54,368 bases of DNA, from positions 1 through 54,368 of the forward strand of contig WOZK01000036.1 in assembly GCA_011620275.1 (NCBI GenBank). Direction: 5' to 3'. Shown here one piece after another: positions 56-29,223 of the stretch. How positions within the stretch are numbered: position 1 is the first letter of the stretch; each line of letters begins with the position of its first letter. Source of the DNA: Candidatus Omnitrophota bacterium (GTDB taxonomy: Bacteria > Omnitrophota > Gorgyraeia > Gygaellales > Profunditerraquicolaceae). Below the pieces are notes generated by a model. The model worked only from the letters and a program-made list of their open reading frames with translations. It did no database searches and had not been told where the DNA came from. Position numbers and translations under genes: made by a program.

Positions 56-1276
56 TCAGTGCACAAATTCCGTTATCTGAAATATAGGGAGGAGCACGGA
101 AAGGACTATTGTCCCCAGTATCGCCCCCATCCCGAGTATAAGCATCGGTTCAAGCAAAGAAGAAACAAGCGCTATATCGGATTCCACTTCCTGGGTATAG
201 GAAGCTGCCACCTCGTCGAGCACCTCGGACAGTCTGCCCGACTCCTCTCCGACAGCTACCATCCTGGTGAAAAAAACCGGCAGATCCGTGTACTTCTGCA
301 GGCATTTGGCGATGCTCTGCCCGGAGGCTATATCTCTCCCCGCCTTGGCCAGCCCTTCCTTCAACCTTACGTCCTCCACGGTGAGCGTAGCGATGTCCAG
401 CGACTTCAACGCGGGGACGCCGCTTTTTAAAAGCAGGCTCAACCCGCTGGCAAAATACGCCAGTTCCTGATTCATTGCCATTCTTTTCAACAACGGCACG
501 CGCCGCTTCAATCTGGCGGCCGTGTCCCGAAAGAAGCGGTTGCCCTTGACGCGCAGCAAAAGCAGTATCCCCGCCGCGCATCCGATCACGACCGCGGGCC
601 ACCACTTCCTGCTGAAATCGCTTACCTGAAAAATAACCCCTGTTATGAAAGGGAGCTTTCCTCCCATGCCGGAAAATACCGGTTTAAGGCTGGGGAGCAC
701 GTAATTTATGAGAATGAATATACTGACCGCTCCGACTATCAGCAGGACGGCCGGATACGCCAGAGCGGTCTTGACCTTATTGGACAAGGCGGCGTCTCTG
801 CCCATGAATCCGACTATCTGCTCGAAACTCAAGTCAAGCCTCCCGCTGGTCTCTCCGGCCTTGATAATGTTGATGAAAAGCGGGGAGAAGTATTCCGGAT
901 AGACGGCAAGGGCCGCGGAAAAAACCTTTCCTTCCTTAACGCTGTTATAAAGGCCTTGCACGACTTCGCGCATCTTCTGATTATCGGTCTGTTCGTAGAT
1001 TATCTTGAGGCTGGCGAGCAGTTCCACCCGCGCGCGCATAAGCGTGGTAAGTTTCTTGGTGAAGATATAGATGTCGGCGGGAGAAACGCGTCTATTCCTA
1101 AACCAGGAGCCGGCGGAGTTCCGCGGTTTTACTTCCGGCGGAAGCTCGCGTATAGAGATAGGGAAAAGTTCTGCGGCGATGATTTTATTCAGCGCCTCGG
1201 CCTCGCTGGAGGATTCGATCACGCCTTCTACATGTTCGTCCAGCCCGCGCTTGGCTTTATAGGCGAACTTCGGCAT
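56..1276 (-). CDS. gspF: GspF/PilC-type inner-membrane platform protein
   Basis: This 406-residue protein is a typical-length inner-membrane platform subunit of type II secretion or type IV pilus machines. It docks the assembly ATPase and helps insert or extract pseudopilins. The two-fold GspF domain is visible: a first helical bundle at about residues 65-190 and a repeat at about 270-395, each with the glycine-rich GETSGRLD or GEESGRLSEV signature. Hydrophobic helices lie near 170-195, 225-242 and 375-400. It starts one base after the gspE stop, so the two are surely co-transcribed. It is the last gene of the long riboswitch-headed run. No pseudopilin gene follows before the contig end. Whether it serves secretion or pili cannot be told from sequence. 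Confidence 0.93.
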   Translation of the reverse strand: MPKFAYKAKRGLDEHVEGVIESSSEAEALNKIIAAELFPISIRELPPEVKPRNSAGSWFRNRRVSPADIYIFTKKLTTLMRARVELLASLKIIYEQTDNQKMREVVQGLYNSVKEGKVFSAALAVYPEYFSPLFINIIKAGETSGRLDLSFEQIVGFMGRDAALSNKVKTALAYPAVLLIVGAVSIFILINYVLPSLKPVFSGMGGKLPFITGVIFQVSDFSRKWWPAVVIGCAAGILLLLRVKGNRFFRDTAARLKRRVPLLKRMAMNQELAYFASGLSLLLKSGVPALKSLDIATLTVEDVRLKEGLAKAGRDIASGQSIAKCLQKYTDLPVFFTRMVAVGEESGRLSEVLDEVAASYTQEVESDIALVSSLLEPMLILGMGAILGTIVLSVLLPIFQITEFVH

Positions 1277-1277
1277 A

Positions 1278-2969
1278 TTATTCCTCTCCCCACTCGACCA
1301 CGCGCAACAGCTCTTCCGGCGTTGTCTGTCCCAGGCGAACCTTTTCCAACCCGGCTTTCTTCAACGTGGTGGCCCCCATCTCCAGGGCCTTGGCCTTGAT
1401 CTGCGATGCGGAGGCTTTATTCAGGATAAGAGAACGTATCTCTTCATCCACGAAGAATATCTCATGGATAGCGGTGCGGCCTTTATAGCCGATGAATTTG
1501 CAAAGCTCGCACCCCTTGCCGCGGTATATCTTCATATCGCGGAATTCCTCCGGGAGCGCCCCTTTATCCTTAACTTCCTCCTTGCAGGCCGGGCATATTA
1601 CCCTGACAAGACGCTGGGAGATAAAGGCGTTGACCGAAGAAGCGACGAGATACGGTTCTATGCCTATATCAAGCAGTCTGGTCGCTCCGCTGGCCGCGTC
1701 GTTGGTATGCAAAGTGGAGAAGATAAGGTGCCCTGTCAAAGAGGTCCTTATGGCGAGTTCCGCCGTCTCCAGGTCCCTGACCTCTCCGACCATCATTATG
1801 TCCGGGTCGTGCCTGAGTATACTGCGCAGGGCGTTAGCAAAAGTAAACCCTATCTCCGGCTTGATCTGGATCTGCATCACGCCGCCGAGCTCGTATTCGA
1901 TAGGGTCCTCTATGGTTATGATCTTCACAGCTTCCTTGTTAAGTTTACTCAAGCAGGCATACAAAGTGGTGGTTTTTCCGCTGCCGGTGGGGCCGGTCAC
2001 GAAGATTATCCCGTGCGGTTTCTGCATCATGGTTTCTATTTTCTTCAGGTCTTCCGGGAAGAAACCGAGGTCGTCCAGATTGAAAAGCAGCTGCACCGGA
2101 AGGATCCTTATTACCACGTTCTCCCCGTATATGGAAGGGATAATCGAGATACGCAGGTCCACCTGCCGGTCCTGTATCTTGATGATCGCCCTGCCGTCCT
2201 GGGGAAGCCGTTTTTCCACCACGTTCAGGTTGGAGATTATCTTTATGCGCGAGACGACGGCGGAATGCAGATGTTTGATCGCCTCCGGCACGCGCATATC
2301 GTACAATATACCGTCTATCCTGTATCTGACCCGCACGTAATCGCGGAATGTTTCCAGGTGTATATCCGTGGCCCTGGCGTTGACCGACTCCGAGAGGATC
2401 TGGTTGACCAGTTTTATGACCGAAGCGTCTTCGGCGGTCTTGCCCACATCCCCTATATCCTGTATCTCCTCCAGCGTCTCGTATCTGGATTGTTTGCCTT
2501 TGCCGGTTTTTTCCTGCGTGAGGATCTCCTCCACGGTATCCGCGCCGACCCCGTAATAACGTTTTATGCCTGCGAGGATCTCTTCCTGCGTGGCCAGCAC
2601 CCTTTCGATGTCGAAGCCGAGATGCAGCTTCAGATCCTCCAGCAGCCAAACCGCCAGGGGATCGGAGACGGCGACGGTAAGAACATTGCCTTTCAGTTTT
2701 ACCGGCATGAATTTGTAGAGCTGGATGAACTTCGGGGACACGGCCTTGATGACTTCCTGCGGGATATCAAGCTGCTGCAGACTGGGATAATACGGGATAC
2801 CCAGCTGCTCTCCCAGCGCCATAAGCAATTTCTCCTGGGTCACCAGCCCCATTCTCAGCAGGGTCTTACCGATCAATTCTCCGCTGATGCGGCTTTCCTT
2901 GAGAGCGCGCTCCAGCTGCTCGCGGTTGAGCAGCCCTCTCTGCACCAGGTATTCCCCTATCTTGGTCAT
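1278..2969 (-). CDS. gspE: GspE/PilB-type assembly ATPase
   Basis: This 563-residue hexameric ATPase powers pseudopilus or pilus assembly at the cytoplasmic face. An N-terminal MshEN-type domain (about residues 1-150) is a family known in some members to bind c-di-GMP. It is followed by the N2 and catalytic domains. The Walker A motif GPTGSGKTTT lies near residue 327, with the Asp box and Walker B (MMVGEVRD) after it. A tetracysteine zinc motif, CPAC then CELC, lies near residues 460-490, as in GspE and PilB. The ATP-synthase beta gene ends 11 bases upstream and gspF begins directly downstream. Sitting in one operon with an F-type ATPase and a c-di-GMP riboswitch is unusual. Secretion versus pilus use is unresolved. 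Confidence 0.94.
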   Translation of the reverse strand: MTKIGEYLVQRGLLNREQLERALKESRISGELIGKTLLRMGLVTQEKLLMALGEQLGIPYYPSLQQLDIPQEVIKAVSPKFIQLYKFMPVKLKGNVLTVAVSDPLAVWLLEDLKLHLGFDIERVLATQEEILAGIKRYYGVGADTVEEILTQEKTGKGKQSRYETLEEIQDIGDVGKTAEDASVIKLVNQILSESVNARATDIHLETFRDYVRVRYRIDGILYDMRVPEAIKHLHSAVVSRIKIISNLNVVEKRLPQDGRAIIKIQDRQVDLRISIIPSIYGENVVIRILPVQLLFNLDDLGFFPEDLKKIETMMQKPHGIIFVTGPTGSGKTTTLYACLSKLNKEAVKIITIEDPIEYELGGVMQIQIKPEIGFTFANALRSILRHDPDIMMVGEVRDLETAELAIRTSLTGHLIFSTLHTNDAASGATRLLDIGIEPYLVASSVNAFISQRLVRVICPACKEEVKDKGALPEEFRDMKIYRGKGCELCKFIGYKGRTAIHEIFFVDEEIRSLILNKASASQIKAKALEMGATTLKKAGLEKVRLGQTTPEELLRVVEWGEE

Positions 2970-2980
2970 TTACTGCCTTT

Positions 2981-5242
<2,262 letters not shown>

Positions 5243-5246
<4 letters not shown>

Positions 5247-6727
5247 CCCCGGTTCTCCCGATCCCGAAGCGAAGAGAAGAACTCCTCGATCTCCGCGTCC
5301 AGGGCGGTTTTTATTTCGTCGCTGAGATCGCGTTTGGAATCCAGCAGCCCGGCGAGCTCCGGATCTGTCTCCGTCAGATAAGTAAAAAACCCCTCTTTGA
5401 ACGCCTTGACTTCTTGCGCGCCGCGTTTTTCCAGGGCGCCGCTCTTAAGGGCGTAGAACGTCACGATCTCCTCGAGCGTCGAGACCGGCCTGCCGTTCTC
5501 CTGGGTGAGAAGCTCCCTCAAGATCTCGCCGCGTTTCATCTGGCGCATGGCCTCATCGGAAAGTTTGGTCCTCAACCTGGTCAGACGCAGCAATTCCCGG
5601 TATTGCGCGTATTCCAGGCGCAGCCCGCCGCTTACCTTTTTTACCGCGGGGCACTGCACCTTGCTGCCGATACGGGAAACGGAAAGCCCCATGTCTATGG
5701 CCGGCTTGAAACCTTCGTGAAAAAGCGACGCGTTAAGATAAACCTGCCCGTCGGTCATGGAAACAAGGTTGGACTGCACGTAACCGGTGATGTCGCCCTG
5801 CAGGGTGGAAACGATCGGCAGAAAAGTCATGGTCCCGCCTCCGTGTTCCGGTTTGAGCTTACCCGCCCTTTCCATAAGCTGCGAATGGATATAAAAGATG
5901 TCTCCCGGATAAGCCTCTCTTCCGGGCGGGCGCTCCAGCAGAAGCGACATCTGCCTGTAAGCCCAGGCGTGCTTTATGAGGTCATCGAATACCACCAGCA
6001 CGTCGCGGCCGTGGAACATAAAATATTCTCCGATGGCGGAGGCGGAATACGGGCAGAGATATTGTTCCGCCGAGGAAGTGGCTGCGGTCGAGGCCATCAC
6101 AATGGTATAATCCAGCGCGTTCTTCTGCGCCAGAAGCGAGACAGCGCGTTTGAGGCTGGTGTAGCTGCCGCCTATGCAGACGTATATGCAGACGACGTCT
6201 TTGCCTTTCTGGTTTATGATGGCGTCTATGCCGATGCTGCTTTTTCCGGTCTGGCGGTCCCCTATCAGCAGTTCCCTCTGGCCTTTGCCTACCGGAATGG
6301 CCAGATCGATGATCTTGACGCCGGTCTCGAGCGGATCCACGACCGGGTCGCGTTCTATAACTCCCATCGCCTCGCGGAACACAGGGTAGTGCTCGGACGC
6401 GGTTATCACTCCTTTGTCATCGAGAGGACTGCCGGCGCAATCCACTATCCTTCCCAGGTAGCCGTCCCCCACCGGGATGGTCAATAATTCGGAACGGCTG
6501 ACCAGAGTATCCCCCATCCTGATGTTGCTGTCGTCTCCCAGGGAAACGATAAGCACCGATTCGGGGTTAAAACCGAGTATCAACCCCTTGGTCCCGTTGG
6601 AGAGGTCCACAAGCTGGCCGTAAATACAGGAAGGCAGTCCCGAGGCCATGACTATACCCTGACGCACCTCCTGCACCCGCCCTACTTCGCTGATGTCCAG
6701 ATTAGGTATATGCAGCTGATTGCTCAT
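5243..6727 (-). CDS. atpA: F-type ATPase alpha subunit, divergent
   Basis: This 494-residue protein is the non-catalytic nucleotide-binding subunit of the F1 hexamer. Walker A is GDRQTGKS with Lys162 (Ser replaces the usual Thr). The segment RPPGREAYPGDIFYIHS is nearly standard. The arginine-finger stretch SVSRIG, which completes the catalytic site of beta, is present, as is GGLRLEYAQYREL. The stretch after the first beta strands (IGGSYTSLKRAVSLL) differs from the usual IGQK motif. It is shorter than typical alpha subunits (about 500-515). It follows the b-delta gene after a 62-base gap and overlaps gamma by four bases. Confidence 0.94.
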
Positions 6728-6789
6728 GCTGTTCCTTAAGCAGCTCCGAAGAATGGAGCGGAATGATGTCCGCGGGGAAAAAGTAAACG

Positions 6790-7518
6790 CTATTTGCCCG
6801 GGCCGTTCTTGAGAAAAGGTATGACCTTGCGTAATTTGTTCCTGAGACTGGCGTCTATCACCAGGTCTCCGGTCTGAATCACTATACCGGTGATCAGTTC
6901 CGGGTTCACATCCTCGTTTATTTCGACATCCGTTTTCATCTTGCGCGAAAGCAGGTCTTTCAGCCTCGCGCGCTCTTCGTCCTCCAGCGGACAGCTTGAG
7001 GATATCCTGACCGAGCCTGTGCCCACCGAGAATTTCTCTTCGTCGAGTCCTTCGATCTCGCCGGTGATTTCTTTTATGATCTGCCGCTGGAGGCTGCTTC
7101 TTCCCTCTCCGCTGAAGGCGTACCGGATCATCTCCGTGGCCAGAGCTATTGCCTTCTCTGCCGTCTGGGATTCCATGCTCTGCCGGAGCTTATCCAGTTC
7201 TTCCTTGCCGTGCAGAACGGCCTTACGGCTGTTCTCCCTGGCCTGCTCTTCGGCGTGCGCGAGGATGCCTTCCGTCTCTTTCTTGGCCGCTTCGACTATA
7301 CTTTTCGCCTCCTGCCTGCCTTTTTCGACCTCAGCGATCCTCTCCGCCTTGGCTTTCTCCAGTTCCTCCCGCAGCGCGGCTTCCTTCATCAACGCCTTCT
7401 CGTTAAGATCGCGCAAACGCCGCAAAGCGGAATTAAGATGATTATAGAAAAGGAACCGCAGTATGAATATTAATCCCACGAAAGTCACTATCTGTATCAA
7501 GACCAGCTGAAGAAGCAT
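6790..7518 (-). CDS. F-type ATPase b-delta fusion (stator stalk)
   Basis: This 242-residue protein looks like subunits b and delta in one chain. Residues 5-25 form one membrane helix. Residues 30-150 form a long charged coiled coil, as in subunit b. The C-terminal part (about 170-237) matches the end of delta/OSCP, with CPLEDEERARLKDLL and later GDLVIDASLRNKLRKV. No separate atpH occurs in the run. b-delta fusions are known in a few bacteria. The start has a GGAG ribosome site eight bases upstream. It follows the c-subunit gene after a 60-base gap that holds a strong hairpin. Its presence argues that a complete stator stalk is made although no a subunit is encoded here. Confidence 0.86.
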   Translation of the reverse strand: MLLQLVLIQIVTFVGLIFILRFLFYNHLNSALRRLRDLNEKALMKEAALREELEKAKAERIAEVEKGRQEAKSIVEAAKKETEGILAHAEEQARENSRKAVLHGKEELDKLRQSMESQTAEKAIALATEMIRYAFSGEGRSSLQRQIIKEITGEIEGLDEEKFSVGTGSVRISSSCPLEDEERARLKDLLSRKMKTDVEINEDVNPELITGIVIQTGDLVIDASLRNKLRKVIPFLKNGPGK

Positions 7519-7545
7519 CTGCTTCGCTCCGGGGTAAGGTCCCCG

Positions 7546-7569: not shown

Positions 7570-7578
7570 TCCGGGATG

Positions 7579-7788
7579 TCATTTAAAAAGATTGAATACT
7601 ATAAGCATGGCGATGACGGCGATCGCCTCCGCGAATAAAAAAGCGATAATCATGGCCAGCATGACCCTCGGCGTGGCGGAAGGATTACGCCCTATGGCCT
7701 GGACGGAACCGTACCCCACAAAGGCTATTACCAAGGCGGGCCCCAGGGTGCTCAAGAACATTATCAGGAGTATGGTCAGGTTACGCAT
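7579..7788 (-). CDS. atpE: F-type ATPase c subunit (rotor ring)
   Basis: This 69-residue protein is a two-helix hairpin of usual c-subunit size. The polar loop is GRNPSATP near residues 33-40, matching the conserved R(Q/N)P loop. The ion-binding glutamate is in the second helix (FAEAIAVIAM, about Glu54). The Na+-type signature (Gln in helix 1, Ser/Thr after the Glu) is absent, so H+ coupling is predicted. The glycine pattern of helix 1 is weaker than usual. It begins five bases after epsilon. Ring and ion site look usable, yet no a subunit to carry the half-channels is encoded nearby. Confidence 0.9.
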   Translation of the reverse strand: MRNLTILLIMFLSTLGPALVIAFVGYGSVQAIGRNPSATPRVMLAMIIAFLFAEAIAVIAMLIVFNLFK

Positions 7789-7793
7789 AATAT

Positions 7794-8045
7794 CTATCCC
7801 TCCACAAGTATATCCAGAGAATTGTCCTGCAGGGCCGCGACCCCGTCCTTTATGAAAATATTACGCTCCTGTCCCGGCATAGCGGAAGAGGCCGTTCTCA
7901 GCTTGACGTACCCCCTGCGCAGACGGTACAGAAAAGGCTGGTGAAAATCGAGCACGCAAACCTCTCCGTCGCAGCCGGGGAGGATGATTTCTTTCGCCTC
8001 GCCCTCGAAAAGCTTCTCGTAAATGGTCAAAACCCTGGTCTTCAT
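7794..8045 (-). CDS. atpC: F-type ATPase epsilon subunit, short form
   Basis: This 83-residue protein matches only the N-terminal beta-sandwich of epsilon, the part that grips gamma and the c ring. Signs are an early EGEAKEIILPGCDGEVCVLD segment (the usual LPGxxGExGVLxxH area) and FIKDGVAALQDNSLDILV near the end. The C-terminal inhibitory helices are missing. It opens the ATPase set, ahead of c, instead of following beta as in most bacteria. It starts 12 bases after the peptidase gene. Epsilon standing before the c gene recalls the gene order of N-ATPase operons. Confidence 0.83.
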   Translation of the reverse strand: MKTRVLTIYEKLFEGEAKEIILPGCDGEVCVLDFHQPFLYRLRRGYVKLRTASSAMPGQERNIFIKDGVAALQDNSLDILVEG

Positions 8046-8057
8046 ACCGTATGCGCG

Positions 8058-8855: not shown

Positions 8856-8865
8856 AAGCGCTCTT

Positions 8866-9609: not shown

Positions 9610-9629
9610 TTAAAGCCCCCCTACTTTCA

Positions 9630-18600: not shown

Positions 18601-21600
18601 GACCAGGCCCCGGGAGAACCGTTGGAATCAGGCGCGGTGCGCATCTGAAAACGGATATCGGTGCCGGAAGGCAGCGTGGAGGTCCAGAAAAGGCTCTTGA
18701 GCCTGTCGGTGGTAAAAGTGGTGTCGTAAGCAGTGGAAACAAGCGTTTCCTGCTGTGGATACTTGTTATAATTTATGGTAATATTGTCCAGCTGCGGCGG
18801 GCTGGCAAGGTCGTAGCAGAAGAACCGCAGTCTGTATTGCAGGTATTTGTCCTTGTCGTTCACCGAGCTGTATGAGGACAGATCCCTGCCTTTGGTTATC
18901 TTGCCGGCATATCCCCAGACAATGGCGTCGGAGAGGGAACTGTTGTTGCCGGTGCGCACGCGCACCTCGATCTGCCCCTGGGAGTTATCCTGCCAGGTAA
19001 CGGCCCCGTATCCGGCGTTGTTGCCGATCTCCTTTATCTCCGAGGTGTATTCCCCGGAAGAAAACAGCAGATACTTCATCAGCGAATAGTTACCGTATCC
19101 GCTGGAGACATAAATATAATCACCGCTGCCCGGATACATGGCGTTGGCCTGTCCGTCCATGGAAAAAGGCATATCCTCGTTCTTCTCCCAGGTGTTGCTG
19201 CTGATGGAATACCTGTAAAAATACGGGGTGCCATAGGCAATATCGTAATTATAGGAAACGAAAAGATAGATATAGTCGCCGAACCCGGGGCTGAACAGGC
19301 TCGCTCCGACGTTAGGCATCGGCAAAACGGTCAATGTGGACCAGGTGTTGGCAAGCGTATCGTATTTCCAGAAAGCGGTGGAACCGTTGCCCGGAGTGGC
19401 ATAAATATAATCCCCGCTGCCCGGATATACCAGGTTTGCTCCCAGAGAACAGGCAGAAGGAGCTGAAGCTATTTCCTTCCAGTCGTTGTCGGCGATCGAA
19501 TACCTCCAGAAGGTGGTTGTGGAACCGCCGCGCAGGACGTAAATATAACCGTCTTTATACTCGATCGCCTGCCCGGTGGAGAAAGCGGCAGGCGGCGCGG
19601 CGAGGTTGGTCCAGAGGTCGGTGCTCTCCGTGTATTTCCAGAAATCGGAATAACCGCGCCCCCTGGTAACGTAGATATCGTCTCCGGTCCCCGGGTAAAC
19701 GCTCTTGGAATCGTGATAAACGCCCGAAGGCGGGGATTGCAGGGTGTACCAGACAGAAGAGGAAAGATTGTATTTATAACAGGAGATGGAGTTGCCGCCG
19801 CGCAGGTAGAATACGTCGTCCCCGGAAGGCATCGGGCATATCGAGGCCCCGTAACTGGCGTAAACAGGATAAACTATGGTTTCATCCCACTTGTTCTGGC
19901 TGATGGAATAACGGTTGAAATTAATGCCCAGGTCTCCGTGCCCGGTGCCGAGATAGAAATAAATGATATCACCGCTGCCCGGATAATAACCGCCCGGTAT
20001 GCCGGAGACGGAAAGCGGGGCCTCGGTAAGAATAGTCCAACTGTTCTGGCTCAGCGAATATCTGGCGAAATCCCTGCCCCCGCCCTTCAGACAGTAGAGA
20101 TAGTCCCCGGTACCCGGATACATCAGGTAACAATAATCGCTGATAGACCAGGGGGCGTCGCTAAGATATCCCCAGGTGTCGCTGTCAATGCTGTATTTGG
20201 TGAACTTGACCGCCCCGTTCTGTTTAAGCATATAAATACCTTTATACGGGCCGTCGGGGACGACGCAGGTGCCGTTGCCCTCATTGTAGATCGACTCCAG
20301 CATCGAGGTAAGCGCGACCCAGGACCCGCCGGACTCGTCATCCGTGAACTTGAGTAAAGTAGTGGAATTGTAGGCGCCCGGGCAGACGTAGATACTGCTT
20401 CCGTCGCTGACCATGCGCGCCCCGTAGGTGAACATATAAGGGCTGGAGTTTATCTGCGTCCAGATCCCGGTCTCGGTGTTGTATTTCCAGAAATTCTTGT
20501 TCATATTCCCTTCCGAAACATAGATGTAATCCCCGCTGCCCGGATAGACCGCCCTCTGCCCGGATCCGTGCAAGATAAACGGCAGTTTCATAAGATTCAC
20601 CCATTTTTTCCGGCTGAGAGAGTATTTCCAAGCGTAGTTCGACCATCTGTTCGAAAAAAGATACATATAATCGCCTTTTACCACCAGACTGCCGGAGACG
20701 TTTCTGCCCGGTCCGAAGTTATAATTCACCAGCGGATTGTTCCACTCGCCTGTGGCAAAGTTATAGGTCTGTAATCCGCCGTAACTGTAATGAGAAATAA
20801 AATACAGGTTAGTGTCGCTGGCGCACAGCTTGCCCCTCATAAACACGGGAGGGATCGGCAGATTCTCCCAGTTATTGGTAGATATATTGTATTTAAAGAA
20901 GCCCTTTCTTAATTCCAGAGCGCAGCCCGCGCTGTCTATATAATAGATGGCGTTCTCGGAGGATGAATAAACCATCCTGCCCTGGCAACTCGACCTCCAG
21001 CAGTCGGGCAAGTTGGCCCTGCGCTCCCAGGTATTGGTCGAGAGCCTGTAACGCATAAACTCCGCGCGGGAAGTGTTGCGGAACATATATATGTAATCCG
21101 AACCGTCATAAGCGGCGCAGACCCCGGTCTGAAAGGTCCCATAGGGATTGGTGCTCACCGTGGTCCAGGCCCGGTTGGTTTTGTCATACCTGTATAGATT
21201 CGCGGTATAAGTAGCCGTGCCGCCGGTATAATCTCTTCCTCCCAGACAATAAACGCTGTCATCCGTAACCACCAGCCTTCCTCCTCCGTAATACATGGTC
21301 TGCGGCAAAGGCGGTAGCTGTTCCCAGCTTTCGGAGGATATGTTATATCTGGAGAAACCGTTTTCGTTATATCCCTGGAGACAGTAGATATAATCTTCTC
21401 CCTGCTTATAGCCCAATGCCGCTCCGATATAGACTCCTTTGGTATTGCCGGAAAAGCTTACATCGGCAAGCTTCTCCCATTGGAAAGAAACCGCGGTATT
21501 GCTGGAATTGACGGGATTGAAAGTAAGGAAATAACGATAGAAGTTTTTCGTGCCTTCGCCCCTGATCACATAAATGGCGTCCTGCGAAGCCACATACACG

Positions 21601-22925
21601 GCATCTCCGCCGGTACGTAAATCAAAAACCGCCGCCGATTCTTCCCTCCACTTCTTTTGCGCGGGATAATACCGGTAAGTGGAGCTGTAGCTGTGGTTGC
21701 TCAACAGGCGCAGTTCAGTGCCGCTGCCGTCCGGGTCGTAAATATACATCCTGCTGTAGATGTAGAACGGCAGTGCCGGCATCTCCACGTCTTTGGCGAG
21801 CGTGGATGAATAAGCCGAACTCTCCCAGGTGTCGGAGCCTATGGCGTATCTGCCGAACCACCTGCCGGCGCCGTACCAGGCGTAAAGGTAGTCTCCGGAA
21901 CCGGGATAGACCACATCGGAATCCCAGGTCTGGCCGGTGGGACAGTTGGAAAGCGTGGTCCAGGCATTGGAGCCGGCGGTATAATCGAATTTGGCGAAAG
22001 TGACGGAACCGCCGCCAGCGGAGGCGTAGATATAGGGAGAATCCGCTTTGGGATAACAAAGAGAGGCGCCGATACCCACGGTAAAAGGCGCGGACTCCAC
22101 CGCCGACCATGAACCGGTGGCGTTGATGTCCGAAGGTATCACGAACCTGTAAAAAACCGAAGTGTAGTTGCCGCAAAAGGCGTATGCCCGGCCGATGGAA
22201 GGCACGATAGCGATCGTCCCGCCGTGACCTACGGGAGAAGGGACGTTGGCCTTGACATGCCAGGTGTTGGCAGAGATCTTATAGGCATAGAACTCTTTTC
22301 TGTTGCCGCCGATAAGCGCGTAGATAACGTCGCTGCCGTCGTAAGCCAAAGCTGCCCCCTGGCCTGTGCTTACGGGTATGCTTTCCATCAACTCCCATTT
22401 TTCTTCGGCGATGGACCAGCGGGCGAAGGTCTTGTTGTCGTTGCCGCACTGCCAGATGGAATAGATGTAATCACCGGCCTTGACCAGCGGTGATATCCTG
22501 CCCATATAAGGGGCGAAAGGAAGACTGGACCATTCGCCGAGCCGGCTGCAAAAGGGGTCCTGATAGACCGTGTTGATCTCCACCCTGGCGGAGGTGCCGC
22601 TGCCGCCGACCACCACGTTGTTTTTCATCCCCAGGGAGAAGTCCGTATCCGTATCGTCTGTCAGTGCGAAGGTCAGCGGAGACATCATCAACTTACCCGT
22701 GGGGCCGGTGGTAAGATTGGAGCTTTTGGAGGAGTATTTAGTCCAGTTGCTCTTGTTGGTAGGGTGCTTGGCGGTATCGGTAGAGGCCCCGCCTCTCCAG
22801 TCGCCCTGGCTGAAGTTATAGTATTCTTCGCAGAAGGCGCCGGAACAGAGACAAAGAGAACAAAGCGAGAGCGCCGCCAGCGGCATTATCATTCTCAATA
22901 TTCTCGGATATCCCCTTTTCTTCAT
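9630..22925 (-). CDS. Giant exported multidomain surface protein (about 4431 residues)
   Basis: The start at 22925 (MKKRGYPRILRM) is preferred because an AAGGAAAG ribosome site precedes it and the longer start overlaps the upstream stop; a signal peptide ending near CSGAFC follows. Residues of about 130-1430 carry dozens of Kelch-like repeats with the pattern GSGDYIY, FxxY, NxW. Next come a DUF2341 domain (about 1510-1620), an IgGFc-binding-like beta stretch, a second DUF2341 (about 1970-2090), and two beta-sandwich modules. Then there are 13 repeats of about 95 residues beginning like SPNGGE and containing ITW and YSxDGGxTW, which match the Kre9/KNH-like Ig fold (about 2690-3950). The last 300 residues are mostly coiled coil. 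No LPXTG or PEP-CTERM anchor is seen. Likely an adhesin or cell-surface fibre; binding partner unknown. Confidence 0.85.
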   Translation of the reverse strand: MKKRGYPRILRMIMPLAALSLCSLCLCSGAFCEEYYNFSQGDWRGGASTDTAKHPTNKSNWTKYSSKSSNLTTGPTGKLMMSPLTFALTDDTDTDFSLGMKNNVVVGGSGTSARVEINTVYQDPFCSRLGEWSSLPFAPYMGRISPLVKAGDYIYSIWQCGNDNKTFARWSIAEEKWELMESIPVSTGQGAALAYDGSDVIYALIGGNRKEFYAYKISANTWHVKANVPSPVGHGGTIAIVPSIGRAYAFCGNYTSVFYRFVIPSDINATGSWSAVESAPFTVGIGASLCYPKADSPYIYASAGGGSVTFAKFDYTAGSNAWTTLSNCPTGQTWDSDVVYPGSGDYLYAWYGAGRWFGRYAIGSDTWESSAYSSTLAKDVEMPALPFYIYSRMYIYDPDGSGTELRLLSNHSYSSTYRYYPAQKKWREESAAVFDLRTGGDAVYVASQDAIYVIRGEGTKNFYRYFLTFNPVNSSNTAVSFQWEKLADVSFSGNTKGVYIGAALGYKQGEDYIYCLQGYNENGFSRYNISSESWEQLPPLPQTMYYGGGRLVVTDDSVYCLGGRDYTGGTATYTANLYRYDKTNRAWTTVSTNPYGTFQTGVCAAYDGSDYIYMFRNTSRAEFMRYRLSTNTWERRANLPDCWRSSCQGRMVYSSSENAIYYIDSAGCALELRKGFFKYNISTNNWENLPIPPVFMRGKLCASDTNLYFISHYSYGGLQTYNFATGEWNNPLVNYNFGPGRNVSGSLVVKGDYMYLFSNRWSNYAWKYSLSRKKWVNLMKLPFILHGSGQRAVYPGSGDYIYVSEGNMNKNFWKYNTETGIWTQINSSPYMFTYGARMVSDGSSIYVCPGAYNSTTLLKFTDDESGGSWVALTSMLESIYNEGNGTCVVPDGPYKGIYMLKQNGAVKFTKYSIDSDTWGYLSDAPWSISDYCYLMYPGTGDYLYCLKGGGRDFARYSLSQNSWTILTEAPLSVSGIPGGYYPGSGDIIYFYLGTGHGDLGINFNRYSISQNKWDETIVYPVYASYGASICPMPSGDDVFYLRGGNSISCYKYNLSSSVWYTLQSPPSGVYHDSKSVYPGTGDDIYVTRGRGYSDFWKYTESTDLWTNLAAPPAAFSTGQAIEYKDGYIYVLRGGSTTTFWRYSIADNDWKEIASAPSACSLGANLVYPGSGDYIYATPGNGSTAFWKYDTLANTWSTLTVLPMPNVGASLFSPGFGDYIYLFVSYNYDIAYGTPYFYRYSISSNTWEKNEDMPFSMDGQANAMYPGSGDYIYVSSGYGNYSLMKYLLFSSGEYTSEIKEIGNNAGYGAVTWQDNSQGQIEVRVRTGNNSSLSDAIVWGYAGKITKGRDLSSYSSVNDKDKYLQYRLRFFCYDLASPPQLDNITINYNKYPQQETLVSTAYDTTFTTDRLKSLFWTSTLPSGTDIRFQMRTAPDSNGSPGAWSSWLGPQGVQEITYDFEDAYEYANTSEVVFSAGTVKLSKVLADYLYRQKIVVDNRSGSSAYANTTVKVDIPSADMDFWDHVADDGSDIRFTDSDGKTPLKYRVMGFSKEKKSASCWVTVPSIPQGAEKEIYLLYGKSSATSESDASLAESMIGTNFYALSFSFLDIISTDAPNRVYIEKLNAEGQVVASTFLDFTSVGEIQRYTDTALTCYHVYSQKPITLFASSIEPSGTYDDDFYTASGNDLWLWCPAYNYDGDVIITAYNDDTQIKITDYGKGDDTGTLTLDAGIFWFGWNKVDSRGEVWHIEATKPITVQAGLIGHGDASEQMRSPDMQEYYFYCPDANITFTAYEDNTNIVFDNLDNLSGVTGDYSGTLNKGQSYRHIPNPGSSMTVRARLSADKPLCVVADDMNGGKGQIYQSADTLMSVGKDYYINTGGARYLKLIDYEEGANNITVTGDISPSPTTLTLSARGGMATLDPGNTWRNLHLTGTKKFAVYAYSSYGEAITPVLKPTEFNHLISTYLVAKEEPADGPALAGWLYKETIRIDNTLNTQELTDFQVAVDVDKNHRDFWLHCLADGGDVRFVDSDGSTLLNYYAESFSYTGKEARFWVKIPVLPYIEQKVIYMYYGKADAASASDGNGVFEFFDDFDAGLDKWDSQYCNLTTISSIFGMDSSPFNLSAGASTVQTPVAIPTGIVAGRTYDWYWELRWPNGALVEAQSISQPFTLYSDLLRMTAGPFMEKNVAPGQVITTIGGTFTNNYSIAINGLRFRFTLTDVDTGASFQEIDSSTFNIPVGTSTINNVSVTMPSGLTAGHLYYWSWAVLDQNNNQLFSSSAAPAALFNIACQFQLSSGPVLPSSVTGGTNASISGTFDNAGGVSLNNLFWRFTLIDTTQGGRSVAKVAHNGYLQAKSNVSPNYDITTEVTWQTANKTGRHFIGICDPNAKASTGMNNSNYKAGYDVLINSNGYYYDESGNGYTTWYTIRTPYTFAMWNKDKMSWKPHDTLNGQTGRVIFELSTGDKLTYNAGYVAGPGLAIKPTIRSSADAIYVDKIMVYKKAAVKPYVGFVFIETSNPTGMEVYYTTNPVIQPVLGVFYDNNLTAFQEVNTIPLDTDIRYQVSCDGYNWHWWDGTAWKAVSGGFSQTNEAPEINNNLAAFQTQFPSGEFFFRAFLNSADGVGTPLLDTVSVFTTSEPTYYITPAGSRVNFLNSDTVNDRWVQYKAVLNSYGQETPVLQDVGFSYLDAVLKITSPNGGESLPIGTTALITWTSQGIDGADNQVKIEYSIDGGSTWMLIVDNLVNNGAYEWQVANNPSPNALIRVTSKKYSAIRDTSDAVFGIMGLILNSPDGGNQWEIDSTHNITWSSYGTVSNNLKIECSLDGGATWLYPPVADQRINNGLYTWNIPNRESYISSVCLMRITDMNNTNITDCSNSVFSIVPKPAMTITSPVGGEIWKAGSAKDITWDNKGNVNPLVDVYYSVDSGSNWTLLQSSVSNTGTYSCTVPNVLSSQVRIRIAETAVPPGRDTQDKIETASGGDFTITLPTITISSPNGAEKWVRGDTREIAWTSDGAIGENALKIEYSIDEEGNWVTVSEDEADDGSYSWVIPQGAVGANVKIRITDTSRPEVQDESDAYFEVLDKPIIVLVQPNGGEKTTIGAPYEVKWFTIGDALDGPLLTVYFSADSGEHYEVISDQRPNNGSYFWIPPEKEISTARIKIKCDDTENFPWVEDASDADFTIQKPHLTLTWPNGGESLYAAGTYNITWESVGSIGLNAIKLEYSVNGGNTWQTIAGGLANSGSYSWKTADSLTDKLKISVSDDSQPGVKGESQNNNSIIAPSLTLTSPNGGELWVVGLDYPITWTSVGDHNSISNNLVLQYSMNNGGTWKSIAGGLSNEGTYIWHIPNDISNNCKVRIYDYSRTATQDASDAVFQIAAPCITITTPNGGEVWPYGTSHEILWNVIGQVSDDVTITYSVNGGTTWLPVYSGPTNNHSYVWTVSENISSTCKIKIKDNEPPYIEDTTDTVFSIAYPIITVTRPNGGEFFVVTDNENITWSTEGTVSNSLKIEYSRDNFVLDINEIADNVVNTGVYIWRVPEVLSTVLRIRITDNSVPQITDKSNAGFSILPFPVVTIDSPNGGERWRIGTKHNITWHDNGGPLSNNLVLEYSVDGGSDWKPIAGGVSNSGSYEWTIPEDYSVNAQVRITDNQRATTVDYSDAVFTIDNPQITIIAPVSATYWAVGDPAVITWVSEGAVSDNLLLQYSVDNFITLETIAVGEANDGSCSWSVPDEPTNNMKVRIVDGNRPATIATSEAFTVLQYPQVTVTSPNGGEEYVVGDSVNITWTSKGLSINPLTIVYSSDNFATTRTIKTGAPNTGSYNWVIPDDTICVNTLKIKIYDPARPVISDASNNNFRIRGGFNITYPAANIDWAVNEPRAVTWQTRGQVPNVKLDYSMDAGSTWTTIIISTPNNGAYTWVPPDYHGQKALFKVSDPTDDTVFSVSPSFNIIYYRITWMVKDYDNMDNLQNLSVRDSWWFDSSAAIICPVTHEYPYGHYTTFWSKEGYIERSADWIADGNKSITLLLENSISAQIEWHVLLSTAYNSATDTISASSWLERRGKIVGLNEIDRADLTSATLSVYDGETLIKTLTSGAPDGNGAFWFTWANTGLTSGKTYFVKSTVVFRGGSYNSGASIDVTTELTAKGQTAILQNLQTQTATIQSQVTQDIPQKITQAKEEIKEDTARILTATETDIPDKIEEARRQQETDIRSEILNRENSVRSGTDLVVRYRTYPGVQPTVDFYDPNNVQCVSKGVMTEVSDGIYEYTITVFSGWGRGDFTIVCSESTYGSLDAMIISVIRSDIEQIAGQVSAVLGTTSGLNNFSKIADTLSSQFAVIESALGKISKDLVDQVKEVAGSATDINSVYMQLVNIGRELKKVSTEQNVSLEKLLEVNEEKKNDMTYLKNKTQELKAVMDINQKMIDNIANKPVTQTWFEFK

Positions 22926-22950
22926 CTCTATCTTTCCTTCAGCGTCATAC

Positions 22951-23820
22951 TTACGCATGAAAATACTCCGGACTGCCTGCCGGTTTCTTCTCTTCCAGGC
23001 CCGGGATACCGCAGGCGTCGGCCCTGCACTGCCTGCACTTCCTGAACTGGTTTATGTAAGGCTCACACGCGCTCCTGGCCTCCTGCAATTCCCCGCAGGT
23101 AGGAGGTTTCCTCTCCTTCATCTGCGAGACCGGGATAAGCGGGATAATATTCATTATGTGCGCGCCCAGCGCCGAATACTCCCTGGCTATCGCAAAGACC
23201 TGACTCTTGTTGACCTCCGGGATAAGCACGGTATTGATCTTCACCGTGAAGCCGGCCTTCACTGCCTTCCCGACCCCGTCCTTTTGCCGTTCTATGAGAA
23301 GCGCGGCGCCTTCTTCTCCTTTATATGTCTTCCCGTTAAAGTTGACGAACCCGTATATCTCCGCGCCTATTGCTGCATCAAGGGTATTGACGGTAACCGT
23401 GATCGTCCCTACCCTAAGCTCCTTCAATAAGGCGATCTTGTCCGAAAGCAGCAGACCGTTGGTAGAGAGGCACTTTATCAGGTCCGGATGGTGTTTCTCT
23501 ATCAGCCTGAAAGTCTCGAAGGTCTCCGCATTGGCCAGGGACTCTCCCGGCCCGGCTATGCCGGCGACGGTTATGCAGTATTTCCTGCGCGCCTCGCTCA
23601 CTTTCTCCAGCGCCTCGGCCGGTGAGATTATCCTTTCCGACACCCCGGGCCTGTCTTCCGTCAGATTAAGAGAGCGCAGACAGTATTTACAGCCGATATT
23701 GCAGCCGCGCGCCACCGGAAGATGCACCCTGCCGTAGCGGGAATGCGCCGCCTCCGAGAAACAGGGATGCCTGTCGAGAGGGAAGGCCTTTTTACGCAGG
23801 AACCTGCCGAGAATATTCAT
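22951..23820 (-). CDS. NifB-like radical SAM protein
   Basis: This 289-residue protein has the radical SAM motif CNIGCKYC (Cys40, Cys44, Cys47) and closely tracks the NifB core. Shared landmarks are HPCFSE with His18, RPGV, AGPGE, STNGL, KTYKGEEGA, INTVLIPEVN, and the C-terminal CRQCRADA with Cys262 and Cys265. In NifB, which builds the carbide-containing NifB-co precursor of nitrogenase cofactor, a His and this Cys pair hold the substrate FeS clusters. All these ligands are present here. No nifH, nifD, nifK or nifE is in the window, so nitrogen fixation is not supported. The protein may make a related FeS product. It overlaps the TauE-like gene by four bases and precedes the giant protein by 25. 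Confidence 0.85.
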   Translation of the reverse strand: MNILGRFLRKKAFPLDRHPCFSEAAHSRYGRVHLPVARGCNIGCKYCLRSLNLTEDRPGVSERIISPAEALEKVSEARRKYCITVAGIAGPGESLANAETFETFRLIEKHHPDLIKCLSTNGLLLSDKIALLKELRVGTITVTVNTLDAAIGAEIYGFVNFNGKTYKGEEGAALLIERQKDGVGKAVKAGFTVKINTVLIPEVNKSQVFAIAREYSALGAHIMNIIPLIPVSQMKERKPPTCGELQEARSACEPYINQFRKCRQCRADACGIPGLEEKKPAGSPEYFHA

Positions 23821-24395
23821 CTGACTGCCCCTCCGGATTTGTATATGTAAAGCGCTCCCGTCAACACGAGTATGACCCCTCCCGCTCTTTTTATGATGTG
23901 CCTGTGCGGCGCCACCCTCTCCAGCAGGCCGGCTGAAACAAATCCCAGGGAAAGATAGACCGAAGAGCTCAAGGCGTAAGCCAGCGAAACAAGCATCCCC
24001 TGAAACAGCCTTGTGCCCAGTATCAAAGGCACAAGATAAATGTATTTTCTGCCGGGATTCAACATACCCCGCATAAGCCCTATCCCGAACCCTACCCTGC
24101 CCTGCAGAGAGCCGCTGCTTTTTCCACGGTGATTCCTGACGGACAAAAGGGAATATATCCCCATTGCGGCGACCGCTATGCCGAACAGCAGATTCAAGGC
24201 CCTTTTATCGATAGTCAAAGAACGCCCCAGCAAAGCGACTATCAGGCCGAAAATGAGCAGACCGATCAGCCTGCCGAGAAGGAATTTCAGGCCCGCGTAC
24301 CTGTCCGATAGAGTGAGCCCGAAAGCCAGGAAAGGGCAGATAAACAGCCCTTCCGCGGACAACCCTATTACCAACGCCGTTAATATCCTCTCCAT
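23817..24395 (-). CDS. TauE/SafE or DsbD-like polytopic membrane protein
   Basis: This 192-residue protein has about six hydrophobic helices in two similar halves. The first half has ICPFLAFG near residue 18, and the second has LNPGRKYIYLVPLIL near residue 115. That repeat style is seen in the TauE/SafE (UreH-like) and DsbD transmembrane families, which move sulfite, metals or electrons. No paired catalytic cysteines are visible, which argues against DsbD-type electron transfer. It overlaps the NifB-like gene by four bases, so the two may act together, for example in sulfur or metal supply. Substrate unknown. Confidence 0.6.
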   Translation of the reverse strand: MERILTALVIGLSAEGLFICPFLAFGLTLSDRYAGLKFLLGRLIGLLIFGLIVALLGRSLTIDKRALNLLFGIAVAAMGIYSLLSVRNHRGKSSGSLQGRVGFGIGLMRGMLNPGRKYIYLVPLILGTRLFQGMLVSLAYALSSSVYLSLGFVSAGLLERVAPHRHIIKRAGGVILVLTGALYIYKSGGAVR

Positions 24396-24413
24396 ACGCT
24401 CTGCCCGCCCGTT

Positions 24414-24953
24414 TCAATGGCACTTAAAACTCTCCACAATACCCCGGAATTCGCTTTTAGTAACCGTTCCCAGCAGATCCAGGAAAAGAAATTGTCTGCC
24501 GGTCTCCGGACAGCTAAAGCGGCAAATCAGTATTTCCTCTTCAGAAGACTTCCCGCAGGGGCGCGTAATGTTCACGCTCCCTTTAGAGAAAAATACCGCG
24601 TGTCCGTTTACCCGGGTCTCTTTATCATCCTCCCGTTCTCCGGAAGAAAGCCTATACCGTTCCGCGGGGAAGAAAGACATTACCTCCTGCCTCTGTTTTC
24701 CCCAGGAAACGGCGAATAAACGCTCGAACATCCCCCGCTCTGTCTTGCTTGCGAAGATCACCGCCCCCTTCTCTTCGCTGCCTTCCACCGCTTGCGGAGG
24801 AAGGAACGCGGGGACTTCAAAACTTATATTCCTGTCCTTCTTCTGATCTATCTGCCTCTTGTCTCCGGCTCCCGCAGCGCCCTGCGCGGCTAAAAACAGG
24901 AAAACCAGGGATAAAAATAGCGTCAACGAGCTTCTGTATCCGCGGGTACTCAT
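24414..24953 (-). CDS. Small exported protein, unknown
   Basis: This 179-residue protein is not recognised. Residues 1-29 form a clear signal peptide ending at AAGAG. The mature part is polar with alternating beta-like strands and four cysteines (CGK, ICRFSC and the C-terminal KCH). These may form disulfides or bind metal. The start codon overlaps the RAYT-like stop by four bases, and it lies 18 bases before the TauE-like gene, so it is within the long transcript. The phrase SEFRGIVESFKC at the end resembles the closing helix of small secreted lipoprotein-type domains, but this is too weak for a family call. Confidence 0.65.
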   Translation of the reverse strand: MSTRGYRSSLTLFLSLVFLFLAAQGAAGAGDKRQIDQKKDRNISFEVPAFLPPQAVEGSEEKGAVIFASKTERGMFERLFAVSWGKQRQEVMSFFPAERYRLSSGEREDDKETRVNGHAVFFSKGSVNITRPCGKSSEEEILICRFSCPETGRQFLFLDLLGTVTKSEFRGIVESFKCH

Positions 24954-25936
24954 TTCTTCCCGCCTTTTGCCTTTTCTCTTTCTTCCGTCAACTCTATCAC
25001 CTTCTTTTTCTCTATATCCAGGCGCTTCTGCATCGCCTGATAGGATACCAGGTCGGCACGATACAATTCCTGCAGGTCTTTCTTGATGAATTCCCTGTCC
25101 TTCATCAACCTCTCGCTATACTCCATATCCTTCTGGCGGGAGATATTTTTAAGCCTGTTTTTCAGATTGACCTGCACGAGCAACAGCGAAACGGCGATAA
25201 CACAGAAAACCGGGATAAGCATCTTCGCCCGGAGCGAAAAGACCGAGTTCTCTCCCCGCGCCCCGGCCCCGGCTGAGGATTTCTCGCGCTCGACTTCCGC
25301 TCTCACTTTAGCCACGAAATCATCGCTGCCGAGTATGTTCTTCCTGGCCAGCTCGTTACCGAGCGCTTCCATCTCCGGAGCCGGAAGAGACCCTATATAT
25401 TCCGGATACGTCAAAGGCATGTCTGCGGCCTGCGACAAAAGCGCTTCCATTTCCCTGCGCTCGGCCTCCATATCGAAAAGACTGCCCTGCCCTTGCCCGG
25501 CGAATGCCCGGTAACTGCTGAATTCATAGGCCCCGGGGTCATCGGCAAACCCCAGTTTGCAAGGATTCTTGTGTATATAAGCGCTGACCCCCAGTAGATA
25601 GCCGTGTTTTTCCAAAATAGTGATCTTAGCCCTTTCTTGAAGAAGATGCCCTTTTCTGCCGTAACGGGAATTGAAATATTTGGTGTAATTGGAATTCAAG
25701 GCGTGCATTATCCGGGAAACTGTGCATCCCTCTCTGGGCTCGATAAGCAGATGGACGTGATTCGGAAGCAGGATGAACGAGAACACCCTGCAGCCTAATT
25801 GTTTTTTATATTTCTTCAATAATTCGATGTATGTCCGGAAATCTCCGTTGTCTTTAAAGATGACCTTTTCATTGTCTCCGCGCGAAGTTACGTAATAAAC
25901 GGAGCCCTCGATGTAAATGCGTGGTATCTTCTCCAT
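24950..25936 (-). CDS. RAYT-type Y1 transposase domain fused to membrane helix and coiled coil
   Basis: The start at 25936 (MEKIPRIYIEG) has a strong AAAGGAG site; upstream codons in frame lie in the leader and are not used. Residues 1-145 are a complete REP-associated tyrosine transposase domain: the HUH pair is NHVHLL (His60, His62), and the nucleophile is Tyr120 in AYIHKNP. RAYTs nick and join single-stranded REP DNA. Unlike usual RAYTs of about 150-250 residues, this one is 328 residues. It continues through a charged linker to a membrane helix at about 238-256 and a coiled coil at 260-322. It is the first gene of the long run behind a c-di-GMP riboswitch. REP-like palindromes occur throughout the window. 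The tail suggests a role at the membrane or domestication. Confidence 0.85.
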   Translation of the reverse strand: MEKIPRIYIEGSVYYVTSRGDNEKVIFKDNGDFRTYIELLKKYKKQLGCRVFSFILLPNHVHLLIEPREGCTVSRIMHALNSNYTKYFNSRYGRKGHLLQERAKITILEKHGYLLGVSAYIHKNPCKLGFADDPGAYEFSSYRAFAGQGQGSLFDMEAERREMEALLSQAADMPLTYPEYIGSLPAPEMEALGNELARKNILGSDDFVAKVRAEVEREKSSAGAGARGENSVFSLRAKMLIPVFCVIAVSLLLVQVNLKNRLKNISRQKDMEYSERLMKDREFIKKDLQELYRADLVSYQAMQKRLDIEKKKVIELTEEREKAKGGKK

Positions 25937-25973
25937 TTTTACTCCTTTATGCGTGGCACGGCACCGCAAAACA

Positions 25974-26000
25974 TAAAAAAACCGGGCAGGACTGCCCGGG
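25974..26000 (-). terminator. Intrinsic terminator between riboswitch and RAYT gene
   Basis: On the minus strand a 9-bp stem (CCCGGGCAG / CTGCCCGGT, two-base loop) is followed by six T. It lies between the GEMM aptamer and the first start codon, where an expression platform should be. The segment GATCCC at its foot can also pair with GGGAT at the end of the aptamer, giving a possible antiterminator. Which state c-di-GMP favours is not decided by the sequence alone. Confidence 0.85.
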
Positions 26001-26014
26001 ATCGTCAAATCACG

Positions 26015-26115
26015 CATATCCCAACTCTTCGGCAGTCTGCCGTTCCTTATAACCGGCAAAGGAAGCACGACTTTGCGCCCCCCGGTTACCCGGAGTTTGC
26101 CTTTTCGGATCGAGA
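26015..26115 (-). promoter_or_regulatory. c-di-GMP-I (GEMM) riboswitch aptamer
   Basis: Read on the minus strand, the element holds the GEMM core: GGCAAAC (26095-26101), a stem CCGG-GTAA-CCGG with a GNRA tetraloop (26082-26093), and GCGCAAAG (26071-26078). A second hairpin follows with TTCCTT/AAGGAA arms (26043-26064), and then the 3' part GGCAGACTGCC (26031-26041) with GAAG. The base matching Vc2 G20 is G, not A, which favours c-di-GMP over cGAMP. The canonical GACGCAAAG has one change (GGCGCAAAG). It sits 15 bases or so after a promoter -10 box and just before an intrinsic terminator. Confidence 0.85.
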
Positions 26116-26133
26116 TACAATCTACCTGTATAA

Positions 26134-26161
26134 AGTATACCACAAATAGCGCTTTTATCAA
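26134..26161 (-). promoter_or_regulatory. Sigma70-type promoter of riboswitch-headed operon
   Basis: The -35 box is TTGATA (26156-26161) and the -10 box is TATACT (26134-26139), with a 16-base spacer. Transcription would begin near 26127, just ahead of the GEMM aptamer. No other convincing promoter was seen down to the contig end at 56. Confidence 0.75.
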
Positions 26162-29191: not shown

Positions 29192-29223
29192 TCCCACCTC
29201 CACAGCGGGGCAAAACCCCTCTA

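Follow-up and report, generated by a model that had tools for sequence, protein, structure and literature searches.

A conserved Omnitrophota gene cluster joining a giant membrane-anchored protein, type II secretion-like genes and an F-type ATPase in which no subunit a is found

A conserved gene run

The stretch of DNA analysed here – the window – is a whole contig of 54,368 nucleotides (WOZK01000036.1, hereafter C14) from a 36-contig, 1.48-Mb genome, 92.5% complete, of Candidatus Omnitrophota bacterium (assembly GCA_011620275.1, family Profunditerraquicolaceae). It carries a run of 15 genes on one strand (open reading frames, ORFs, from 25936 down to 56), where a giant exported protein and a small membrane protein, here named SPcc, are encoded together with a peptidase, an F-type ATPase and the secretion proteins GspE and GspF. 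The run is headed by a promoter-like site, a cyclic di-GMP (c-di-GMP)-I riboswitch aptamer and a terminator, just as a first-pass annotation of this DNA had placed them. The packing is also as tight as was then described: gaps are short or give way to overlaps of four bases, the longest being 60 bases (between c and b-delta) and 62 bases (between b-delta and alpha). Upstream of the riboswitch come a secretin gene, gspC-like and gspA-like genes and two genes for tetratricopeptide repeat (TPR) proteins, which corrects an earlier account of this region (Table 1).

The run stops at base 56 because the contig ends there. Contig C7 of the same genome (locus L102) carries gspL at 255 bases from its end, followed by gspM, gspI, gspJ, gspK and gspG. 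Since the ends of C14 (about 28-48) and C7 have a 21-base stretch in common, GCGAATTTTGCTACTGCAAAA, and since gspF adjoins gspL in relatives, the two contigs are probably neighbours. This stretch at contig ends is perhaps a REP-like element tied to RAYT genes; a contig of the same genus (G103:C72) likewise ends soon after gspF. Promoter-like sites are no more numerous than in shuffled sequences on both strands (11 against 13.8 and 4 against 5.6). Terminator-like sites exceed the shuffles (30 against 18.2 and 21 against 9.6) and are mostly weaker than that of the leader; one of them, within the beta gene and on its coding strand (3643-3629; six pairs, three of them G-C, with its own T tract), might cause some internal termination.

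How far this arrangement extends was followed with the b-delta protein, searched in 108 genomes of the family. It gave 47 places at E ≤ 1.4e-10, that of the window included, of which 38 were taken with their surroundings; linkage was counted only over loci with enough sequence for the gene in question. The ATPase genes stay with b-delta throughout (c, which precedes it, in 36/36 loci, alpha in 31/31, gamma in 33/33, beta in 31/31); gspE (29/29) and gspF (18/18) come after them, and the Peptidase MA gene is linked in 25/30. SPcc is present in all 29 loci that could be counted, in 13 of them as an ORF of its own and in the other 16 as the terminal part of the giant ORF. A scan of the genome_contigs set with the SPcc alignment yielded 45 loci. 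The records of 40 bear the label Omnitrophota or Omnitrophica or that of a named member (Velamenicoccus, Zapsychrus); the other five are under the labels Parcubacteria, Kaiserbacteria, Falkowbacteria or Patescibacteria. In distant lineages (L147, L152-L158) the order is altered, to SPcc-alpha-eps-c-c'-b/delta-gamma-beta-E-F, with the set still together. In the closed genome of Velamenicoccus archaeovorus LiM (NZ_CP019384, about 1.758-1.799 Mb) a single run reads GGDEF-eps-c-b/delta-alpha-gamma-beta-E-F-L-M-G-I-J-K-A-C-D, with an unassigned ORF of 116 amino acids between beta and E; a giant gene lies about 7 kb beyond that run, on the same strand, and the giant/SPcc pair of LiM (L123) is about 21 kb away from the ATPase genes. 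The proposal made from the window alone, that these genes form a unit, is thus borne out, and the gene order is kept among relatives. A chance neighbourhood is ruled out by conserved linkage across family loci, LiM and distant lineages.

A second, diverged group of such machines comprises 11 loci (L068-L070, L072-L075, L079-L082), G094 and G095 carrying both groups. In ten of the 11, gspE is preceded by one or two additional short gspE-like ORFs, and in eight the carboxylate of subunit c is replaced by glutamine (Q). An Omnitrophota-type locus (L134) was also seen on a contig labelled Parcubacteria, a label that may be wrong because of the type of locus and of the strong b-delta match (as defined below) in its genome.

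Table 1. Features of the window, with the basis of each assignment
Feature	Position	Strand	Basis and remarks
gspA-like AAA ATPase	32165..33010	-	AAA_22 60.2 bits; relative beside gspC/D in V. archaeovorus LiM (L160)
gspC-like inner-membrane protein	31541..32158	-	T2SSC 23.5 bits (Pfam cut-off 27); GspC models weak
Secretin (GspD/PilQ superfamily)	29581..31506	-	PF00263 160.4 bits; PilQ 238.0 and GspD 231.1 bits, both below NCBIfam cut-offs
TPR protein	28628..29269	-	TPR models
TPR protein	27939..28631	-	Relative beside gspD in LiM, 65 bits
Promoter-like site TTGATA-16-TATACT	26134..26161	-	10/12; best of scan of 9000-26600
c-di-GMP-I riboswitch aptamer	26028..26111	-	RF01051, 56.6 bits (gathering score 35)
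Riboswitch terminator, strong	25982..25999	-	7 pairs, 6 G-C, then 7 T; 5' arm can pair with 3' end of aptamer
RAYT-like (IS200/Y1) protein with transmembrane-like stretch and coiled-coil-like tail (read from sequence)	24950..25936	-	Y1_Tnp 44.5 bits
Probable exported protein	24414..24953	-	No Pfam match at E 0.1; weak relative beside LiM giant gene, 55 bits (L162)
DsbD-like membrane protein	23817..24395	-	PF13386 23.7 bits, just under cut-off of 24.9
Radical SAM protein, NifB-like	22951..23820	-	PF04055 63.3 bits; TIGR01290 261.7 bits, below cut-off of 343.65
Giant exported protein	9630..22958	-	Kelch, two DUF2341, Kre9/KNH repeats, conserved C-terminal region
SPcc: signal peptide, beta domain, helical region, transmembrane segment	8866..9609	-	Family alignment and model; fused to giant C-termini in 25 loci
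Peptidase MA-like metallopeptidase, likely start near 8855	8058..8927	-	PF13485 45.9 bits
F-ATPase epsilon, N-terminal domain only	7794..8045	-	PF02823 55.7 bits
F-ATPase subunit c, carboxylate (E) present	7579..7788	-	PF00137 32.9 bits; alignment
Subunit b fused to C-terminal half of delta	6790..7518	-	Profile matches, comparison
Subunit alpha, shortened N-terminus	5243..6727	-	Profile matches, comparison
Subunit gamma	4389..5246	-	PF00231 112.3 bits
Subunit beta, P-loop GGAGLGKS	2981..4369	-	Profile matches, alignment
GspE with MshEN domain	1278..2969	-	T2SSE 429 bits, MshEN 60 bits; NCBIfam c-di-GMP motif 51.7 (cut-off 38)
GspF	56..1276	-	T2SSF 171 bits; contig ends beyond GspF

An altered F-type ATPase

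The ATPase of the window comprises epsilon, c, b-delta, alpha, gamma and beta, with nucleotide-binding loops present in alpha and beta. Compared with the bacterial F1Fo ATP synthase, it has in common alpha, beta, gamma, epsilon, c and a subunit b carrying part of delta, but it is without subunit a, without the N-terminal half of delta, and its alpha begins with a shortened N-terminus. The subunit a family (PF00119) has no match in the genome of the window, and a custom hidden Markov model (HMM) finds subunit a at none of 27 family loci; the same HMM finds it in 16/16 control loci, one of which supplied a training sequence. These controls are ordinary F-ATPase loci from the same phylum, selected because PF00119 is present in them. 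In the phylum at large, 166 of 384 genomes have a strong b-delta match (E ≤ 1e-25, a threshold applied by hand). Among the 166, PF00119 is without a match in 75, 44 of them at least 90% complete, and it has none in closed LiM (searched as G176, which we take to be LiM from the same b-delta place and E-value). That subunit a was merely lost through incomplete assembly is ruled out by these 75 genomes, LiM included. The other 91 have a PF00119 gene somewhere; among the places listed, it shares a contig with b-delta in only two genomes, at distances of about 86 and 540 kb, and in the family run no contig has both (0 shared, for 47 b-delta and 49 PF00119 contigs).

The peripheral stalk is altered as well. 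All that is left of delta is its C-terminal half, fused to b. The alphas of the system have 16-31 residues before the first conserved motif – the one exception is an ORF with an upstream-extended start – and are without the stretch xPEExxxxI... carried by ordinary alphas of the same phylum, which we take to be the delta-binding helix. In all 16 control loci the b-like and the delta-like ORF are separate, and the alpha N-terminus is longer. A b-delta fusion is also found in PDB entry 7jg5, presumably the mycobacterial ATP synthase, yet that fusion has 445 amino acids and the Omnitrophota one 242, with the C-terminal half of delta only. In a tree of system and control alphas, the 57 system alphas and the 16 ordinary ones split cleanly, with a support of 1.0. 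What had been called a partial F-type ATPase without subunit a therefore keeps half of its description: subunit a is indeed not found, but the enzyme is not merely partial, being, to judge from these comparisons, a lineage of its own in which subunit a is missing and the stalk is altered. Subunit c keeps its RNP loop in the loci that reach that far. A short epsilon was considered as a diagnostic feature and dropped, the 16 ordinary loci all showing epsilon-like ORFs of 78-103 amino acids too.

Two further observations concern rotary ATPases. The genome of the window has V/A-type ATPase genes in two places, one (C13) with A, B and D, the other (C18) with genes for two PF00006 proteins, for a D subunit and for a proteolipid, and with a match to subunit I that is weak and below the cut-off. 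Loci L152-L158 have a second tandem c-like gene, and L153 a third; three of these copies are without the carboxylate (V in L153 and L156, G in L155).

The secretion genes, the giant protein and c-di-GMP

When the genes upstream of the riboswitch, those that come after the ATPase genes and those of C7 are taken together, they make up a gspA, C, D, E, F, G, I, J, K, L, M-like set, resembling that of a type II secretion system (T2SS). GspG matches the equivalog TIGR01710 with 142.5 bits, over a cut-off of 88.85, and T2SS models rank first for GspE and GspF. The first-pass annotation had seen an assembly platform in GspE and GspF; it is present, and the secretion genes around it look like those of a T2SS-type system.

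The giant itself is as announced, a protein of 4431 residues counted from M12 (4442 from the first start), with DUF2341, Kelch and Kre9/KNH domains. Its C-terminal region is conserved; the model of this region is of low confidence (67.2). SPcc was modelled better (pLDDT, the predicted local distance difference test, 83.7) as a signal peptide, a beta domain, helices and one transmembrane segment, and its model has no PDB match at E ≤ 0.001. The mature part of SPcc follows the giant within one ORF in 25 loci, and the C-terminal HMM of the giant matches the same ORF in 20 of these 25 fusions, four of the matches being weak (< 30 bits); a further candidate fusion, L145, was excluded, its ORF crossing a run of N. 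Because the two form one ORF in 25 loci, the sequences are most simply explained if giant and SPcc are one functional protein tied to the cytoplasmic membrane, with SPcc as its anchor. The membrane partner that had been assigned to the giant would accordingly be no separate partner, but its anchor domain.

Side observations around the giant deserve mention. Contigs labelled as Patescibacteria groups (L148-L151) encode large proteins with an SPcc anchor domain in genomes without strong b-delta, L148 and L149 having near-identical proteins around the anchor. In G096:C1 (about 226.4-265.0 kb; L061, L085, L103) a giant ORF is seemingly open over some 38.6 kb, roughly 12,900 residues, if frame continuity between the three stretches is assumed. 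A RAYT-like transposase with a transmembrane-like stretch and a coiled-coil-like tail is found upstream of the giant in three genera, in the window and at the G049 and G096 loci (L083, 8974-9981; L103, 16735-17736). The L103 copy is without one histidine of HxH, presumably the motif of RAYT-like transposases, which suggests domestication.

Control by c-di-GMP had been claimed from the window, and it recurs in three forms: as a riboswitch, as the MshEN domain of GspE with its c-di-GMP motif, or as an in-operon REC-GGDEF protein. The head of the window, riboswitch, RAYT-like gene and giant, recurs in another genus (G049). Riboswitches of the c-di-GMP-I class are common in the family (99/108 genomes at E ≤ 0.001, 96 over the cut-off), and the link therefore rests on their having the same position at two loci. 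REC-GGDEF is matched by HMM just before the ATPase genes in 18/32 loci, of which two were checked with Pfam. Folding of the two riboswitch leaders gave the same picture for both. In the unliganded form the 5' arm of the terminator is paired with the 3' part of the aptamer at a probability of about 0.8-0.88, the terminator itself having 0.12-0.14. With the whole aptamer constrained to be unpaired, the terminator forms. Constraining the first 84 bases alone has the same outcome, a result that adds no support to a switch, and the predicted switch thus depends both on aptamer positions about 82-85 and on the 3' strand of P1. As folded, both leaders are predicted to be OFF switches, c-di-GMP turning expression off, and this would fit a motile rather than a sessile state.

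A possible surface motor and its alternatives

That a motor without its ion-pumping part should sit in a conserved cluster with a secretion machine and a giant protein suggests that its task is mechanical work at the cell surface rather than ATP synthesis. Having c, gamma, epsilon and the catalytic alpha and beta, no subunit a and a reduced peripheral stalk, the ATPase is best explained as no longer ion-coupled. We see an even chance that the whole is a c-di-GMP-controlled T2SS-type machine displaying an inner-membrane-anchored giant, with this ion-uncoupled rotary ATPase as its mechanical motor; the parts, their conserved linkage, the fusions, the missing parts and the separate alpha lineage are read directly from sequence. 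In such a machine the T2SS would export or thread the giant. SPcc, separate in the window and the giant's own C-terminal domain in other lineages, would keep the displayed protein anchored in the cytoplasmic membrane, and Peptidase MA might process or release it. Hydrolysis of ATP would turn or cycle the c-ring and so perform work on the anchored giant or on the pseudopilus, the outcome of which could be gliding, pulling, release or prey contact. In riboswitch lineages low c-di-GMP would switch the unit on. A more specific version – possible, but doubtful – is a diderm ATP-driven rotary surface motor, in which the c-ring, turned against the T2SS platform, spins, pulls or releases an inner-membrane-tethered giant adhesin and thereby powers gliding or prey contact in Omnitrophota.

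The ATPase might also act chemically rather than by rotation, as a secretion ATPase which unfolds, releases or cycles the giant, the c-ring being then only a membrane anchor. A precedent exists in the Mycoplasma Type 3 F1-like X0 ATPase, needed for the MIB-MIP system (PMC12994834), and both the linked peptidase gene (25/30 loci) and the missing stalk contacts would agree with it; but c with its RNP loop (36/36) and gamma (33/33) are kept, which points to a rotor and makes this alternative unlikely.

Several observations weigh against the ion-uncoupled motor. The carboxylate of subunit c is still glutamate (E) in 31/39 rows of the family set and in 36/39 of the genome_contigs set, the other three being extra tandem copies (the two sets overlap in part, the same contigs appearing under two names, and are not additive); to keep it would be odd if ion binding had no role. 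Together with the PF00119 gene present in 91/166 strong genomes, this might indicate an ordinary ion-coupled ATPase, with a subunit a located elsewhere or diverged beyond recognition. We think this quite improbable, as PF00119 is not found in 75 of the 166, LiM included, nor beside the locus where this was checked, and as the stator contacts on the F1 side are reduced too. In addition c has Q in 8/39 rows of the family set, and because of this replacement ion coupling seems to have been lost at least in the Q lineage.

The identity of the secretion system is a second weak point. The models for E, F, K and C score below curated cut-offs (GspE 575.5 bits for 630.25 and GspF 329.8 for 424 in NCBIfam; GspK 45.7 for 130), as does GspI (24.6 for 44.35); the J-position protein has only a general pilin domain above cut-off, and the secretin is matched slightly better as PilQ than as GspD. 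The PilM model matches the protein at the GspL position. The PilQ and PilM matches would be expected if the locus encoded a type-4a pilus, its ATPase aiding attachment and motility on host cells, as proposed by Seymour et al. (2023), who published the co-location with pilus-like genes (PMC10066038). Yet GspG is a T2SS equivalog above its cut-off, the set includes gspC/gspA-like genes and a GspK-like protein that scores below cut-off, and there are pilus-like gene sets in other parts of the same genome (C29 and C15). We hold the pilus for highly improbable: the ATPase does have pilus-family genes beside it, but judged by GspG these are of T2SS type.

Nor is the association complete. The riboswitch was found at two loci only; scans of 12 further upstream stretches, the majority of them lying wholly inside a giant gene, gave none. 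Six Omnitrophota loci (L120, L121, L133, L139, L140, L146) have giant and SPcc with no ATPase gene in the fetched stretch, some coming from genomes that also have an ATPase locus (same record series: L129/L133, L131/L140, L139/L144); a seventh such stretch, L123, holds the pair of LiM described above. Giant/SPcc pairs further occur in four genomes labelled Patescibacteria, where b- or delta-like matches are weak (best E 4.7e-17) or absent. Anchoring, therefore, does not need the motor. One could go further and see in the ATPase and the giant/T2SS unit co-regulated neighbours which share control without touching; as the genes remain linked despite rearrangements, distant lineages included, we give this the least credit, a very slim chance.

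The preferred reading, an ion-uncoupled motor serving a T2SS-type machine, has relatives in the literature. Seymour et al. (2023) described a non-respiratory 'symbiotic' F-ATPase, which 56 of 111 Velamenicoccia species encode next to 'type-4a pilus' genes, and suggested a role in attachment and motility on hosts (PMC10066038). Their type 2/3 enzymes, with alpha and beta distinct from the respiratory ones, are probably the same loci, LiM included; giant ORFs are treated there apart from the ATPase. In the available portion of its main text the terms 'type II secretion', 'T2SS' and 'riboswitch' are absent, the passages on 'subunit' are silent on a missing subunit a, and the anchor is not given. 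The initial statement that no system with this set had been described must therefore be restricted to subunit make-up, T2SS, riboswitch and anchor, an ATPase beside pilus genes having been published. In the literature searched we found neither the missing subunit a, the T2SS identity, the anchor and the c-di-GMP wiring, nor any T2SS with a built-in rotary F-type ATPase or with a membrane-anchored giant. The terms 'ATPase', 'secretion' and 'pilus' do not occur in the text of the limonene paper on LiM.

The F1-like X0 ATPases of Mycoplasma, tied to gliding (PMC3369863) and to MIB-MIP (PMC12994834), where Type 3 acts by a mechanism given as unknown, are the nearest parallel that we can offer. Types 2 and 3 are, according to what these sources report, likewise non-respiratory F1-type ATPases tied to a surface protein system and devoid of a recognisable subunit a; they differ in having no recognisable b or c but three unrelated proteins, where the Omnitrophota set has c, b-delta and a T2SS. 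The principle is shared, the make-up is other. Among the 58 PDB matches of the window beta at E ≤ 1e-40, the weakest is the G1-ATPase subunit beta, which we take to be the M. mobile protein. If the reading is true, there is, beyond Mycoplasma, a rotary F-type ATPase that has a c subunit and yet no path for ions, and its genes are linked to those of a secretion machine and of a tethered giant, in a phylum whose members are tiny and in part predatory. The published 'symbiotic' ATPase would gain a parts list, and its role would become testable with V. archaeovorus LiM, at hand as an enrichment culture with a closed genome and public proteomes (PRIDE PXD025008, named in PMC12583861).

Finally, the remainder of the window encodes on the opposite strand (37348-40038) a glycosyl hydrolase 94-like protein of 896 amino acids and, at 51937-52300, the class A RNA of RNase P, with tRNA-Val and tRNA-Met further along.

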